DNA from: Lysinibacillus sp. 2017
Lineage (GTDB): Bacteria; Bacillota; Bacilli; Bacillales_A; Planococcaceae
Reading direction: 5' to 3'
DNA length: 64,000 bases
Assembly (NCBI RefSeq): GCF_003073375.1
Contig: NZ_CP029002.1
Coordinates: 482,001-546,000, forward strand
In this document: piece after piece, positions 19,328-30,629 of the stretch
Layout of the letters: the number at the start of each line of letters is the position of its first letter
Numbering within the stretch: position 1 is the first letter of the stretch
Made by a program: the position numbers and the translations under genes
Notes under the pieces: model-generated
The model's database searches: none
What the model was told of the DNA's origin: nothing
What the model saw: the letters and a program-made list of their open reading frames with translations, nothing else

Positions 19328-19450
19328 AGTATGAAACGTGCACATATATAGCTGACCTCGAAACATTGTGTAAACAATGCCATATTCGGGCTATGTAAGG
19401 TGCAGTTCGAAATACTCTGTTCCAGATGGTTCAGGGCGAGAGGAGAAAAC
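19328..19450 (+). ncRNA. candidate ribosomal-protein L31 leader RNA
   Basis: A GC-richer, structured 5-prime UTR between the promoter and rpmE. CATTG-TGTAAA-CAATG forms a small hairpin (about 19363-19380), and TTCG-containing segments and GGTTCAGGGCGAGAGG follow directly up to the ribosome site. L31 leaders thought to be autoregulatory are known in Firmicutes; I infer membership from position and structure, not from a covariance match. Confidence 0.5.
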
Positions 19451-25516: not shown

Positions 25517-26809
25517 ATGAAATCAGAAAAAAAATTATTTAGTTTACGCAGAAAACTGGTTCTGTTCGTTGGGATATTAGCATTAGTAACGTATACATGT
25601 AGTTTCGTATTTATTGAATATTTACGTCCTACGTTCTTTGAGTCAACAAGCAGTAGCCTATTTCAAATTATTACATACGTGCTAGGAATTTTTTGGTCAT
25701 GTGCGCTAGCAGCTGTTTTTAGTTTGGTCATTGTTCGACCGTTACAACGATTAGAACATTCAGCAAATGAAGTGGCAGAAGGTAAAATTGGCAAAGATGT
25801 TGAAATGCCCAAAACAAATGATGAAATTCGTTCGGTTGGAGAAGCGTTTCAAGCAATGGTGGAAAATTTACGCAAAATGGTGGATGGAATTGAAGGAAAT
25901 TACAAAACGACCGATGAAACAATTCGGGAGTTATCGGATCAAAGTTCATCGGTCACAAGAAATGCTGAACAAATTACGATGAATATTTCACAAATCTCAT
26001 CAGGTGCTGAATCTTCAGCCATCGCCATTCAAGAAACAGCAGAGGCTATCGAGGAAGTGCGTGAGCTAGCATCAGGAGTAAATGATAAGGCTATGCATTC
26101 AGCCGAGCGTTCAAAACATCTATTAGAAAATTTAACAACGACAACAGAAGCAATCAATGGTGTCGTAAATAGCATTCAAAAAATCGCTACGAATAATGAA
26201 AATGCATTAGTAAGCATTCGCGAGCTCGAAAAAAATGCCGAACAAATAGAGCGTATTATTGGTCTAGTAGGCGATATTGCAGGACAAACGAATTTATTAG
26301 CATTAAATGCATCGATCGAAGCTGCACGTGCAGGCGAACATGGGAAAGGTTTTGCCGTTGTAGCAGAAGAAGTGCGGGGCCTTGCCGATGAAAGTGCCAA
26401 CGCCGTACATGGTATTACAACACTTATTCAAACCATGCAGCAAAACGTGAGCATTGTCGTGAAACAAATGAATGAACAAGTAGCGTTCGCGGTAAATGAG
26501 TCATCACGCGTTTCAGAAACGACAGCAGCTGTTGATAGTGTATCGGTTGCAATTCATGAAATGACAGACAACGTAATGAACATTTCAAACTTAGTCGATC
26601 AACAAATGAAAAATATTGAGCGTACGTCACGCCAATCCCAAGAAGTTGCGGCAATCGCACAGGAAACGTCAGCAAGTGCTCAAGAAGTAAGCGCCGCATC
26701 AGCTGAACAAGCCTATGCAATCAAACAAGTCGAAGCATTGGCTAACAATCTTCAACAACAATCAGCCGAGCTCTATAAAATGATTCAACAATTCGATCGT
26801 TCGAATTAA
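25517..26809 (+). CDS. methyl-accepting chemotaxis protein without a ligand domain
   Basis: 430 residues. Two membrane helices (about 14-33 and 49-71) enclose an external loop of only about 15 residues, so no Cache or four-helix sensor domain exists. A HAMP domain (about 72-125) and a full cytoplasmic signalling domain follow, with the hairpin tip [23 protein letters not shown]. It probably senses within the membrane or cytoplasm, or pairs with another protein. It starts 0 bases after ywlE in a position where B. subtilis has rpiB, so it is an insertion in the operon. Confidence 0.92.
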
Positions 26810-26814
26810 GACGC

Positions 26815-26850
26815 AACCAGTACTCGCCTAAAAGTGAGTGCTGGTTTTTT
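26815..26850 (+). terminator. terminator after the chemotaxis receptor
   Basis: AACCAGTACTCGC pairs with GTGAGTGCTGGTT (G-T pairs included), followed by a T run. It isolates the repeat island from upstream transcription. Confidence 0.88.
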
Positions 26851-26867
26851 AATTCATTAAATATCGG

Positions 26868-28355
26868 GGCAAAGGGGATAGTCCTAGCTAGTTTTCTTCT
26901 AATTAAGAGTTTATGAAAGTGTATCGGGTATGGCAGGCTGGGCGCCCAGAGTCGCAAAGATATGTTGCACATATCTGTACGACTCTTCTTTGCGCCTTGT
27001 GCTAGGCCTGCCAAATCAAAGTGTAATCCATTCTACTTTTGCATGTATTCAGGGGCGGCGCTGTTGACGAGCAAAGGCGCCGTTTACTTTTAAAGTGAGT
27101 CCGTTGAATTTTGTGAGTTGAAGGGATTGTCAAGCTAGTCATATTCTAATAGAGATGTTATGAAAGTGTATCGGGTTTTGGCAGGCTGGGCGCCCAGAGT
27201 CGCAAAGATATGTTGCACATATCTGTACGACTCTTCTTTGCGCCTTGGGCTAGGCCTGCCAAATCAAAGGATTGTCCATTCTATTTTTGCATGTATTCAG
27301 GGGCGGCGCTGTTGGCGAGCAAAGGCGCCGTTTTTCTTTGAAGCGAGTCCGTTGAATTTGGTGGGTTGAAGGGATTGTCAGAGCTAGTCATCTTCTAATA
27401 GAGAGGTTATGAAAGTGTATCGGGTTTTGGCAGGCTGGCGCCCAGAGTCGTACAGATATGTTGCACATATCTGTACGACTCTTCTTTGCGCCTTGTGCTA
27501 GGCCTGCCAAATCAAAGTGTAATCCATTCTGCTTTTGCATGTATTCACGGGCGGCGCTGTTGACGAGCAAAGGCGCCGTTTACTTTTAAAGTGAGTCCGT
27601 TGAATTTGGTGGGTTGAAGGGATTGTCAGAGCTAGTCATCTTCTAATAGAGAGGTTATGAAAGTGTATCGTTTTTTTGGCAGGCTGGGCGCCCAGAGTCG
27701 CAAAGATATGTTGCACATATCTGTACGACTCTTCTTTGCGCCTTGTGCTAGGCCTGCCAAATCAAAGTGTAGTCCATTATGCTCTTACATGTATTCAGGG
27801 GCGGCGCTGTTGGCGAGCAAAGGCGCCGTTTTTCTTTAAGGCGAGTCCGTTGAATTTGGTGGGTTGAAGGGATTGTCAGAGCTAGTCATCTTCTAATAGA
27901 GAGGTTATGAAAGTGTATCGTTTTTTTGGCAGGCTACCGCATATCAGCAGCAGGGTCACGTGGTACGTGTCCCTACTACTGATACTGTTGCGGTATGCTA
28001 GGCCTGCCAAATCAAAGTTTAATCCATTCTACTTTTGCATGTATTCAGGGGCGGCGCTGTTGACGAGCAAAGGCGCCGTTTTTCTTTGAAGCGAGTCCTT
28101 TGAATTTGGTAGATCAAAGGGATTGTCAGAGCTAATTATTTTCTAATAAAGATGTTATAAAAGTGTATTGGGTTTTGGCAGGCGACCGCATATCAACAGC
28201 AGGGTCACGTGGTACGTGTCCCTACTACTGATACTGTTGCGGTATGCTAGGCCTGCCAAATCAAAGGATAGTCCATTCTACTTTTACATGTATTCAGGGG
28301 CGGCGCTGTTGGCGAGCAAAGGCGCCGTTTTTCTTTTAAAGTGAGTCCTTTGAAT
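26868..28355 (+). repeat. repeat array A: six forward copies of a hairpin-plus-terminator unit
   Basis: Six tandem units with a 248-250 bp period. Each has (1) a leader, TTCTAATagaGAGGTTAT type; (2) an 80-81 base long hairpin closed by GGCAGGC and GCCTGCC, at 26932-27012, 27180-27260, 27429-27508, 27678-27758, 27928-28008 and 28177-28257; (3) a linker of about 45 bases with CCATTCTA and CATGTATTCA; (4) a second hairpin, CGGCGC with GCGCCG, then a T-rich stretch (T-run 5-6 in four copies), at about 27056, 27304, 27552, 27802, 28052 and 28301. Copies 1-4 share one inner stem, copies 5-6 another of equal length. Short ORFs starting ATGAAAGTG change frame between copies, so the array is judged non-coding. 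No clear sigma-A promoter is seen. Confidence 0.9.
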
Positions 28356-28500
28356 TAAGTGTGAAAGGGACTGTCCCAGATTCTCTTTTTGTAAGGGGGT
28401 GAATATATGGATAGATAAGGTTCAATAGTTGTCGAAGCCTTCATATTCTATAATGGTAGGATAAATACATTGTGATTTTACCTACTTTATAAAAAGATTC
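28356..28500. other. junction between the two convergent arrays
   Basis: About 145 bases of unique sequence. It has a strong ribosome-site-like GTAAGGGGGTGAATATATGG, but the ATG is followed by only two codons before a stop. TATAAT occurs at 28449-28454 without a good -35. No gene is supported. Confidence 0.5.
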
Positions 28501-28504
28501 ACCC

Positions 28505-29800
28505 AATAAAAAGACTGGCGCCTACCACTGTAAGCGCCAGCACGTGAATATAAGTAAAAGGAAAATGGATACACCTTATATTGGCAGGTCTTTCACGAAG
28601 CACAAAGGCGAGTCGTACAGACATGTGCAACATGGCTGTGCGGCTTGCGTGCGAAGAACCTGCCAAAAATGACTACACCTGAATAACCTTTTCATTAGAA
28701 GACTGAAAGAGGCTTTGTGAATGTGCTACGCCCGCCCAAACGAAACACCCGAATACCACTTTAATAAAAGGCAGATTCACTGAACTGTATCTTTCTCTAC
28801 TTTATAAGGAAGATTCGATAAATTTAGAAGACTGGCGCCTACCACTGTAAGCGCCAGCACGTGAATATAAGCAAAAGGAAAATGGATACACCAAGTATTG
28901 GCAGGTCTTTCACGAAGCACAAAGGCGAGTCGTACAGACATGTGCAACATGACTGTGCGGCTTGCGTGCGAAGAACCTGCCAAAAATGACTACACCTGAA
29001 TAACCCTTTCATTAGAAGACCGAAAGAGGCTTTGTGAATGTGTGCTACGCCCGCCCAAACGAAACACCCGAATCACCCCTATAACAAAGGATGAATTCAC
29101 TATGATAAACCCTACTGTATAAAAAGATTCACCCAATAAAAAGACTGGCGCCTACCACTGTAAGCGCCAGCACGTGAATACGAGCAAAAGGAAAATGGAT
29201 ACACTAAATATTGGCGGATCTTTCACGAAGCACAAAGGCGAGTCGTACAGACATGTGCAACATGGCTGTGCGGCTTGCGTGCGAAGAACCCGCCAAATGA
29301 CTATGCTTGAATAACCACTTTAATAAAAGGCAGATCCATTTGAACTTTCTCTACTTTATAAGGAAGATTCGATAAATTTAGAAGACTGGCGCCTACCACT
29401 GTAAGCGCCAGCACGTGAATACAAGCAAAAGGAAAATGGATACACCAAGTATTGGCAGGTCTTTCACGAAGCACAAAGGCGAGTCGTACAGACATGTGCA
29501 ACATGACTGTGCGGCTTGCGTGCGAAGAACCTGCCAAATGGACTATGCTTGAATAACCACTTTAATAAAAGGCAGATTCACTGAACTGTATCTTTCTCAA
29601 CTTTATAAGGAAGATTCGATGAATTTAGAAGACTGGCGCCTACCACTGTAAGCGCCAGCACGTGAATATAAGCAAAAGGAAAATGGATAACACCATGTAT
29701 TGGCAGGTCTTTCACGAAGCACAAAGGCGAGTTGTACAGACATGTGCAACATGGCTGTGCGGCTTGCGTGCGAAGAACCTGCCAAATGACTATGCTTGAA
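28505..29800 (-). repeat. repeat array B: five reverse copies of a related hairpin-plus-terminator unit
   Basis: Read on the minus strand each unit has the same module order as array A: leader, an 82-base hairpin closed by GGCAGGT and ACCTGCC, a linker with ATCCATTTTCC, then a terminator-like stem GCTGGCGC/GGCGCCAG. Hairpins are at 28583-28664, 28900-28981, 29213-29294, 29454-29535 and 29702-29783; terminator stems at about 28515-28540, 28832-28857, 29145-29170, 29386-29411 and 29633-29658. Two copies end in TCTTTTTATT, three in TCTTCTAAAT. Spacing is 317, 313, 241 and 248 bp because two spacers carry about 70 extra bases. The apical TGTTGCACA and CTGTACGACTC are shared with array A, so the families are homologous. 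Confidence 0.88.
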
Positions 29801-29866
29801 TAACCACTTTAATAAAGGATGAATTCACTATGATTTCCCCGATTTTACAAAAAGACAGATTGTGAC

Positions 29867-29908
29867 ATTATCTTGGCTGTGCGGCTTGCGTGCGAAGAAC
29901 CCGCCAAA
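29867..29908 (-). repeat. truncated sixth copy of array B
   Basis: Only the GGCTGTGCGGCTTGCGTGCG to CCCGCC half of the hairpin remains; the pairing half, linker and terminator are missing. It marks the outer edge of the array. Confidence 0.75.
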
Positions 29909-30182
29909 TGACTATGCCCGAATCACCACTTCATTAATATCCCCCTATACATAAAACACCCCCACCCTTATTAAATCCAGAAACAAAATAATTAATGCGA
30001 TTTCCGTATGTTACTGACAACCAAATCGTCAAATATACGCAAAAAACTAACGATTATGTATTTGTAAGCTAGAATATTCGGATTTTATGCGAAAATCAGA
30101 AAACTTCTCACTAAAATACGTGTTAATCTAAAGCAATAAATGGTACACTGTTGTTGAATATAATTGAAAGAGGGAACTTCAC

Positions 30183-30629
30183 ATGAAAATTGCGATTTCT
30201 TCCGATCATGGTGGCAATAATTTACGCAAAGAAATTATGTCGCTATTAGACGAACTATCAATCAGCTATGAAGATTTTGGTCCACAATCAAATGATTCAG
30301 TCGATTATCCAGACTATGCACGCCCAGTTGCTGAGAAAGTTGCAGCAGGTGAGTTTGACCGCGGTATTTTAATTTGTGGTACAGGAATTGGTATTTCGAT
30401 TGCTGCGAACAAATTTAAAGGGATCCGTTGTGCATTAGTGCATGATGTATTTTCAGCAAAAGCAACACGTTGTCACAACGACTCAAACGTATTAGCAATG
30501 GGTGAACGTGTTATCGGCCCAGGACTTGCACGTGAAATCGTTACTACTTGGTTAAATACAGAATTTGAAGGTGGACGTCATACTCGCCGCGTAGAAAAAA
30601 TTTCTGAAATTGAACAAGAGCAATTGTAG
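30183..30629 (+). CDS. rpiB: ribose-5-phosphate isomerase B
   Basis: RpiB/LacAB family, 148 residues; interconverts ribose- and ribulose-5-phosphate. SDHGG near the N-terminus (D8, H9), catalytic C65 in LICGTGIGIS, and the phosphate-binding arginines near the C-terminus are present. AAAGAGGGA precedes the ATG. A TGGTACACT extended -10-like sequence lies about 40 bases upstream, so the gene likely has its own promoter because the repeat island separates it from ywlE. Confidence 0.95.
   Translation: MKIAISSDHGGNNLRKEIMSLLDELSISYEDFGPQSNDSVDYPDYARPVAEKVAAGEFDRGILICGTGIGISIAANKFKGIRCALVHDVFSAKATRCHNDSNVLAMGERVIGPGLAREIVTTWLNTEFEGGRHTRRVEKISEIEQEQL

Follow-up and report, generated by a model that had tools for sequence, protein, structure and literature searches.

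Repetitive extragenic palindromes (REPs) are defined by a palindrome of 20-40 bases that is tagged with GTAG or CGTC at one end (PMC3733652), and ordered arrays of REP doublets forming hairpins (REPINs), flanks included, have been reported (PMC3116915). BrickBuilt, a miniature inverted-repeat transposable element (MITE) of Porphyromonas gingivalis, contains a tandem 23-nucleotide repeat with a leader and a tail (PMC4596501). The fold-back-like element Galileo of Drosophila, whose transposase belongs to the P superfamily, has long inverted ends and tandem direct repeats that vary in number, and many of its copies lack the transposase segment (PMC4168063). In the Bacillus cereus group, bcr1 is a structured intergenic repeat of 147-167 bp with reported mobile-element features (PMC2267715). 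This analysis concerns an island of structured repeats in a 64,000-nucleotide stretch of the genome of Lysinibacillus sp. 2017 (the window, meaning that whole stretch), which comprises bases 482,001-546,000 of one contig, 3,737,915 bases in length, with dnaA as its first gene; the source genome is placed in the genus Solibacillus. Each full copy, or unit, contains a long bulged hairpin (HP1) and a second, GC-rich hairpin (HP2). It is fairly likely that the units form a new family of palindromic repeats, mobile but non-autonomous, arranged here in fold-back-like islands that may in addition terminate transcription from both sides. A mobile element fits better than a set of RNA genes because the sites differ between sister species, terminal inverted repeats occur in one species, amplification is seen in some species only, promoters are not in excess, and HP1 has no bias of the RNA type.

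Like REPs, REPINs and bacterial interspersed mosaic elements (BIMEs), the units are intergenic, multicopy, non-autonomous palindromes that occur in inverted pairs and, in some cases, in ordered tandem arrays with flanks (PMC3733652, PMC3116915). Unlike REPs and REPINs, they have a bulged hairpin of about 80 bases and a second hairpin, and they form regular two-armed convergent arrays rather than simple dispersed copies. Their resemblance to MITEs lies in their short length, the absence of a transposase, inverted-repeat ends in one species, sites that are occupied in one genome and empty in another, and short direct repeats at some junctions. Tandem repetition within a mobile element is shared with BrickBuilt, whereas the Solibacillus units are spaced 241-317 bp apart in facing arms; among the bacterial cases in these sources, BrickBuilt and the ordered REPIN arrays come closest. 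Galileo is similar in its inverted ends and its variable tandem repeats, but it is eukaryotic, and the repeated unit in Solibacillus is a hairpin followed by a terminator-like hairpin. The unit resembles bcr1 as a structured intergenic repeat of a Firmicute lineage with features of a mobile element. To our knowledge, two-armed arrays have not been described for bcr1, which is set beside the unit by description and not by sequence. No published account of the repeat family was found among the titles and abstract openings of literature on Solibacillus, Planococcaceae, Lysinibacillus, and bacterial MITEs.

The island lies between a chemotaxis receptor gene (methyl-accepting chemotaxis protein, MCP; 25517-26809) on its left and rpiB (30183-30629) on its right. 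As the original prediction had proposed, 11 full copies and one partial copy occupy this interval: the full units, at 26897-29817, score 140-171 bits each with a covariance model (R1), and the partial unit lies at 29872-29937. R1 was built from 28 units and pairs HP1 only (20 pairs); RNAalifold lost HP2 in the cross-species alignment. The spacings given above agree with the predicted period of 240-317 bp. The single array that had been assumed is in fact two convergent tandem arrays, units 1-6 lying on the + strand and units 7-11 and the partial unit on the - strand, and Tandem Repeats Finder recovers both (26875-28356 and 28481-29816). The parts of the island, and the terminator-like hairpin that precedes it, are as follows (window coordinates, strand, description, means of detection):

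26815..26856 (stem 26815-26846 plus tail), + strand: terminator-like hairpin after the MCP gene, left of the left arm (terminator scan)
26895..27095, + strand: unit p1, module A (nhmmer and R1 match)
26932..27012, + strand: HP1, the long bulged hairpin, of unit p1, as an example
27056..27089, + strand: GC-rich HP2 of unit p1 and the T residues after it (position read from the sequence; the p3 equivalent was folded)
27143..27343, + strand: unit p2, module A (nhmmer and R1 match)
27391..27591, + strand: unit p3, module A (nhmmer and R1 match; folded with flanks)
27639..27842, + strand: unit p4, module A (nhmmer and R1 match)
27889..28092, + strand: unit p5, module B, with a different HP1 stem sequence (nhmmer and R1 match, alignment)
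28139..28341, + strand: unit p6, module B, innermost unit of the left arm (nhmmer and R1 match, alignment)
28342..28506, no strand: centre separating both arms; no listed open reading frame (ORF) of at least 80 amino acids
28507..28702, - strand: unit m1, module C, innermost unit of the right arm (nhmmer and R1 match, alignment; folded with flanks)
28824..29019, - strand: unit m2, module C (nhmmer and R1 match, alignment)
29137..29329, - strand: unit m3, module C (nhmmer and R1 match, alignment)
29378..29571, - strand: unit m4, module C (nhmmer and R1 match, alignment)
29625..29817, - strand: unit m5, module C (nhmmer and R1 match, alignment)
29872..29937, - strand: partial unit, leader and 5' part of HP1 only (nhmmer match)

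Each full unit, 190-200 bp long, consists of an AT-rich leader with a TTCTAATAAAG-like sequence, HP1, a linker, and HP2, and the full units thus keep the module order that had been predicted. One unit of each type, folded with its flanks, gives z-scores of -4.6 and -4.2. The predicted closing of HP1 by GGCAGG/CCTGCC holds in 10 of the 11 window units; the unit at 29138-29328 carries GGCGGG/TCCGCC, and the interior of the hairpin is not constant either (e.g., units 5 and 6 retain the foot while their inner stem sequence differs). The plan of HP1 comprises the foot, a 3' bulge of about 7 bases, a short stem, a 3' bulge of 4-5 bases, a stem with small internal mismatches, and a 3-base loop. Despite differing stems, the plan with its two 3'-side bulges is present in six of the seven typed hairpins (some of them composite) and, with small variations and as judged by eye, in eight of the nine group consensus folds. 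GTAG stands some bases ahead of the HP1 foot in the m units of the window and is absent from the p units (alignment, by eye). A coding role was considered and rejected: the p units have a reading frame that starts at an ATG close to the leader (GGTTATGAAAGTG), but the frames of the units disagree (by eye). At gathering cut-offs the units have no Rfam match (best match below the cut-off, E 0.22), in keeping with the prediction of an undescribed structured family.

Conserved bulges and variable stems are features of attC sites, the folded single-strand recombination sites of integrons. The arrays, and a hairpin plan that is conserved while its stem sequence varies, are reminiscent of such sites. 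However, the window island contains no gene cassettes, as judged by cassette genes of at least 80 amino acids, whole units are conserved, and the feet of HP1 differ among species; an integron-like origin is accordingly regarded as extremely improbable.

The island is one of many in its genome. In what follows G-numbers label genomes and L-numbers fetched loci, the source genome being G000. A BLAST search with one unit gives at least 179 matches in G000, and the loci fetched from it hold at least 25 clusters with 152 full units, each typed by its linker (shorter matches are marked as partial). Both strands are represented in 22 clusters, and all 22 are strictly convergent, with every + unit ahead of every - unit; the other three of the 25 are single-stranded clusters. 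Arm size ranges from 1 to 10 units, partial ones counted. HP1 modules A, B, and E occur in 92 of the 97 units with a p-type linker, and modules C, D, and F in 54 of the 55 with an m-type linker. Several clusters, though not all, have a common order of modules from the inside outward, and B and D are innermost. Mean identity is 87% within the same arm of one cluster (93 pairs), 70% between opposite arms of one cluster (76 pairs), and 73% across clusters (3,831 sampled pairs). According to a simple ORF call, the flanking genes are co-oriented at 16 of the 25 clusters, convergent at 7, and divergent at 2; at 34 single elements in other species the corresponding numbers are 20, 6, and 8. By eye, many islands start directly beyond the terminator-like stretch of the neighbouring gene. 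An IS21-type transposase pair (rve/Mu-C and IstB domains) lies between two groups of units at L036:4791-6838 (G000 about 613.8-615.8 kb) and probably divides a single cluster into the entries at 611,750 and 615,924. The sequence at the IstB end of this pair recurs in the right-hand flank of the cluster whose end lies at 775.5 kb (by eye).

Evidence for mobility comes from comparisons of sites between related species. Nine of the 15 R1 matches of G015 were fetched and compared with nine elements from the sister species G002. Two of the nine G015 elements share their site with an element of G002 (L203 and L205, left out of the site comparison). At the remaining seven sites the same flanks are found in G002, with no R1 match at the loci there; these flanks are 93-99% identical and in G002 either overlap slightly or stand up to 76 bases apart. 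Short direct repeats are visible at three of the seven G015 junctions (TAGAAA; TTWATTA; TTAACATATA), and none was clearly seen at the other four. The ends of the G015 and G002 elements are short and nearly palindromic. In G003, eight inverted pairs of the 14-bp sequence TATATANGTTNAAC are spaced 278-289 bp apart, and all eight coincide with BLAST copies of the unit; the TATATANGTTNAAC pattern has 31 matches in that genome, as against 3 for a control pattern. The evidence for terminal inverted repeats is from G003 and does not extend to the cluster ends of G000.

A second comparison is offered by an orthologous locus between the genes for an AMP-binding enzyme and a prolyl oligopeptidase. Here one + unit faces - units that number one in G012, one in G008, two in G006, and three in G001. 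In G009 the - side consists of one unit and the + side is degraded, and G007 and G011 have a single unit. By R1, 9 of 16 genomes are without a unit at this locus, including G004 although it is near the five paired species. Most of HP1 in the + unit differs between G012, G008, and G006 on the one hand and G009 and G001 on the other (by eye). In G005 (L173) another GC-rich, repeat-like stretch (ACTCCTGCGGGAACAGC) sits at this locus; its 12-base core is absent from the window.

The original prediction had named REP-like mobile palindromes as an alternative, and this reading comes nearer than that of small RNAs. REPs and REPINs moved by a REP-associated tyrosine (RAYT, Y1) transposase would explain why the palindromes are intergenic and dispersed and form arrays and inverted pairs, and ordered REPIN arrays have the precedent mentioned above. 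However, a search of nine genomes for this one family (PF01797) gives no match in G000 or G010, the two genomes richest in R1 matches (at least 150 and 46, respectively). Nine Y1 matches were found in G001, G003, G011, and G254, and no unit lies in the loci around them. With the length of the hairpin and the convergent arrays, which are unlike dispersed REPs, this makes the RAYT explanation very unlikely.

In the first proposal the units were thought to be multicopy small RNAs, each unit being a gene for a transcript that folds into HP1 and terminates at HP2. Several observations agree with this. The bulged plan of HP1 recurs, and double changes in HP1 that restore pairing outnumber those that do not by 58 to 22. 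Pairing that is selected in RNA tolerates G-U more readily than A-C, however, and HP1 has no such preference. Mismatches in HP1 across 57 representatives number 103 GT, 100 AC, and 317 other, compared with 220 GT, 121 AC, and 473 other in 265 terminator-like control hairpins of the same loci, which were counted with slightly different gap costs; the difference in the GT:AC ratio has a Fisher p of 0.002. The representatives derive from 115 of 241 matches, hand-listed without duplicate loci or near-identical array units and then cut at 88% identity. Distinct single changes at folded group-consensus pairs (333 pairs, 195 units) comprise 44 GT, 62 AC, and 154 other, and the corresponding numbers from a previous count based on arm alignment are 39, 52, and 144. 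These counts start from 208 units, of which 195 remain in the folded-pair count after groups of fewer than four and short units are left out. On average, the fold of the unit strand is 3.5 kcal/mol more stable than that of its complement, a smaller margin than the 6.0 obtained from shuffles of the same sequences. HP2 gives GT:AC 52:2 in the static count, as a small RNA would predict, but 20:17 in distinct changes; the static ratio perhaps reflects shared ancestral pairs. HP1 largely retains its shape, but not in the way expected of RNA from the unit strand. Judged by covariation alone, the units would have passed for structured RNA; the relative numbers of G-T and A-C mismatches distinguish the two cases.

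Template-switch correction of quasi-palindromes (PMC8794818) was considered as the full cause of the double changes and set aside. Such a process could make double changes without selection, but it should erase mismatches and bulges; because the bulges recur, it does not appear to be the whole story.

Scans for promoters and terminators bear on the same question. A promoter scan limited to the sigma-70 type finds three sites in the island, where shuffled sequences have a mean of 6.8 (sd 3.0), and none stands at a repeated place. A terminator scan of 26800-30180 finds six sites, five in units and one belonging to the MCP gene, roughly double the mean in shuffled sequences (3.0, sd 1.7). A T run (five or more T among the nine bases that follow HP2) is present in 115 of the 147 units scored in G000, which bears out the prediction of a terminator-like second hairpin in this genome, but only 21 of the 52 scored in relatives. 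With the seven of nine G015 sites that are unit-free in the sister species, these results make transcribed small RNA genes an unlikely explanation. The islands probably act as two-way terminators, given the T runs and their geometry: because the arms converge, transcripts arriving from either side would meet HP2 in the sense orientation.

The family occurs in Solibacillus and some relatives. R1 matches occur in 15 of 16 genomes of the genus (E 1e-3) and, in a search with stricter filters and the best nine candidates scored per genome, in 25 of 261 genomes of the family and 4 of its 19 genera (E 1e-4). The order-level search also covered 261 genomes, with identical matches, and beyond the family 16 genomes of the class were tested. 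In a BLAST sample 7 of 16 genus genomes matched, and none of 9 other family genomes or of the 16 class genomes outside the family. One pattern run against the genome_contigs and viral_contigs collections, and blastn against plasmids and phages, gave no match. The number of R1 matches varies, with at least 150 in G000, 46 in G010, 39 in G003, and 15 in G015. Short arrays or pairs are found in G001, G006, G008, and G012, and in G252 and G256 of the genus of Ureibacillus. In G002 and G015 a repeat of about 610 bp, bounded by CTCATAATGAG-like sequences, carries the unit at one of its ends. These longer elements (L199-L216) have a second GC-rich, partly palindromic stretch in their middle, and L157 and L178 have a comparable stretch after the unit (by eye). 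In the surroundings of rpiB (1.5 kb on each side), 2 of 16 genomes, G000 and G010, have a unit. The G010 unit ahead of rpiB (L186:1083-1273) apparently has another hairpin nested within HP1 (by eye), and the repeats may therefore insert into one another.

The position of the clusters in G000 raises the question of whether they are chromosomal sites selected by the host (insulators, or markers of chromosome folding or replication) whose repetitive form is incidental. R1 and a second BLAST search indicate three further places, at 293, 317, and 603 kb, beyond the fetched surroundings. Measured from the contig start, all 28 entries lie at 273-949 kb on the right or at 476-804 kb on the left, and the terminus half is empty among the matches listed; a 32-base match at 2,668,222, in the terminus half, was left out, and overlapping antisense self-matches of the palindromes were filtered. 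The naive p for this origin-proximal bias is about 6e-10, but the clusters are not independent, and further clusters may exist, as the candidates scored were the best 40 of 50 and 40 of 46 by BLAST and the best 150 of 1,028 by R1 (all 150 matching). A host role would also suit the strict convergence in 22 of 22 clusters and a terminator-like HP2 that faces both ways. In contrast, copies in G003 and G010 are mostly single and scattered round the whole chromosome (BLAST), unit number differs strongly among species, and one cluster has the IS21-type element inside it. Selection of such sites by the host is thus judged quite unlikely.

The preferred explanation, a non-autonomous mobile repeat, can be put as follows. 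The island would be one copy of a two-armed, non-autonomous mobile element whose building block is the unit. In other Solibacillus species the unit is carried within short transposon-like elements of about 280-610 bp that lie between genes. The mobile form in G000 would be a convergent pair, with arms enlarged by tandem duplication into a fold-back-like island, and the shared module order suggests that the whole island may have spread to about 25 places. Movement would probably depend on a trans-acting protein that recognises the folded shape of HP1 or the ends of the element, and the inward-pointing arms would present HP2 in terminator orientation to a transcript from either side. A more specific version, in which a bacterial fold-back-type element with two inverted arms of tandem hairpin units moves as a whole island, its bulged hairpin shape, and not its sequence, is recognised by a recombinase other than RAYT, and its inward-facing terminators make it a two-way transcription barrier that is origin-proximal in G000, is put forward tentatively and is considered less likely than not.

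Several points weigh against mobility of this kind. Clear direct repeats are confined to three of the seven junctions, and their lengths vary (about 6-10 bp). The ends of the elements vary by species, being a 14-bp inverted repeat in G003 and CTCATAATGAG-like in G015 and G002, and in G010 the TATATANGTTNAAC pattern has 11 matches (control 1) but no inverted pair; the unit may therefore be a passenger of unrelated short elements. No moving enzyme was found in the nine genomes searched for the Y1 family, the sole family sought. No sister species is near enough for G000 clusters to be compared with empty sites, and at the AMP-binding locus G004 could have lost its unit rather than never held one. 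Single changes that break HP1 pairs are common, and module C, which makes up the right arm in the window, folds outside the common plan. The recurrence of the bulges indicates selection on a folded strand, possibly RNA, and T runs are frequent in G000, as expected if transcripts end there.

The family, shared by Solibacillus and Ureibacillus, combines strict convergence with a hairpin whose plan persists through changes in its stems, and it is thus a testable case of shape-based recognition of mobile DNA without RAYT. The growth of tandem arrays within a mobile element, and the part of terminators in the intergenic life of such elements, are open to testing in the same system. Elsewhere in the window, an L31-Firmicutes ribosomal protein leader at 19415-19445 is the sole Rfam match at the gathering cut-off.

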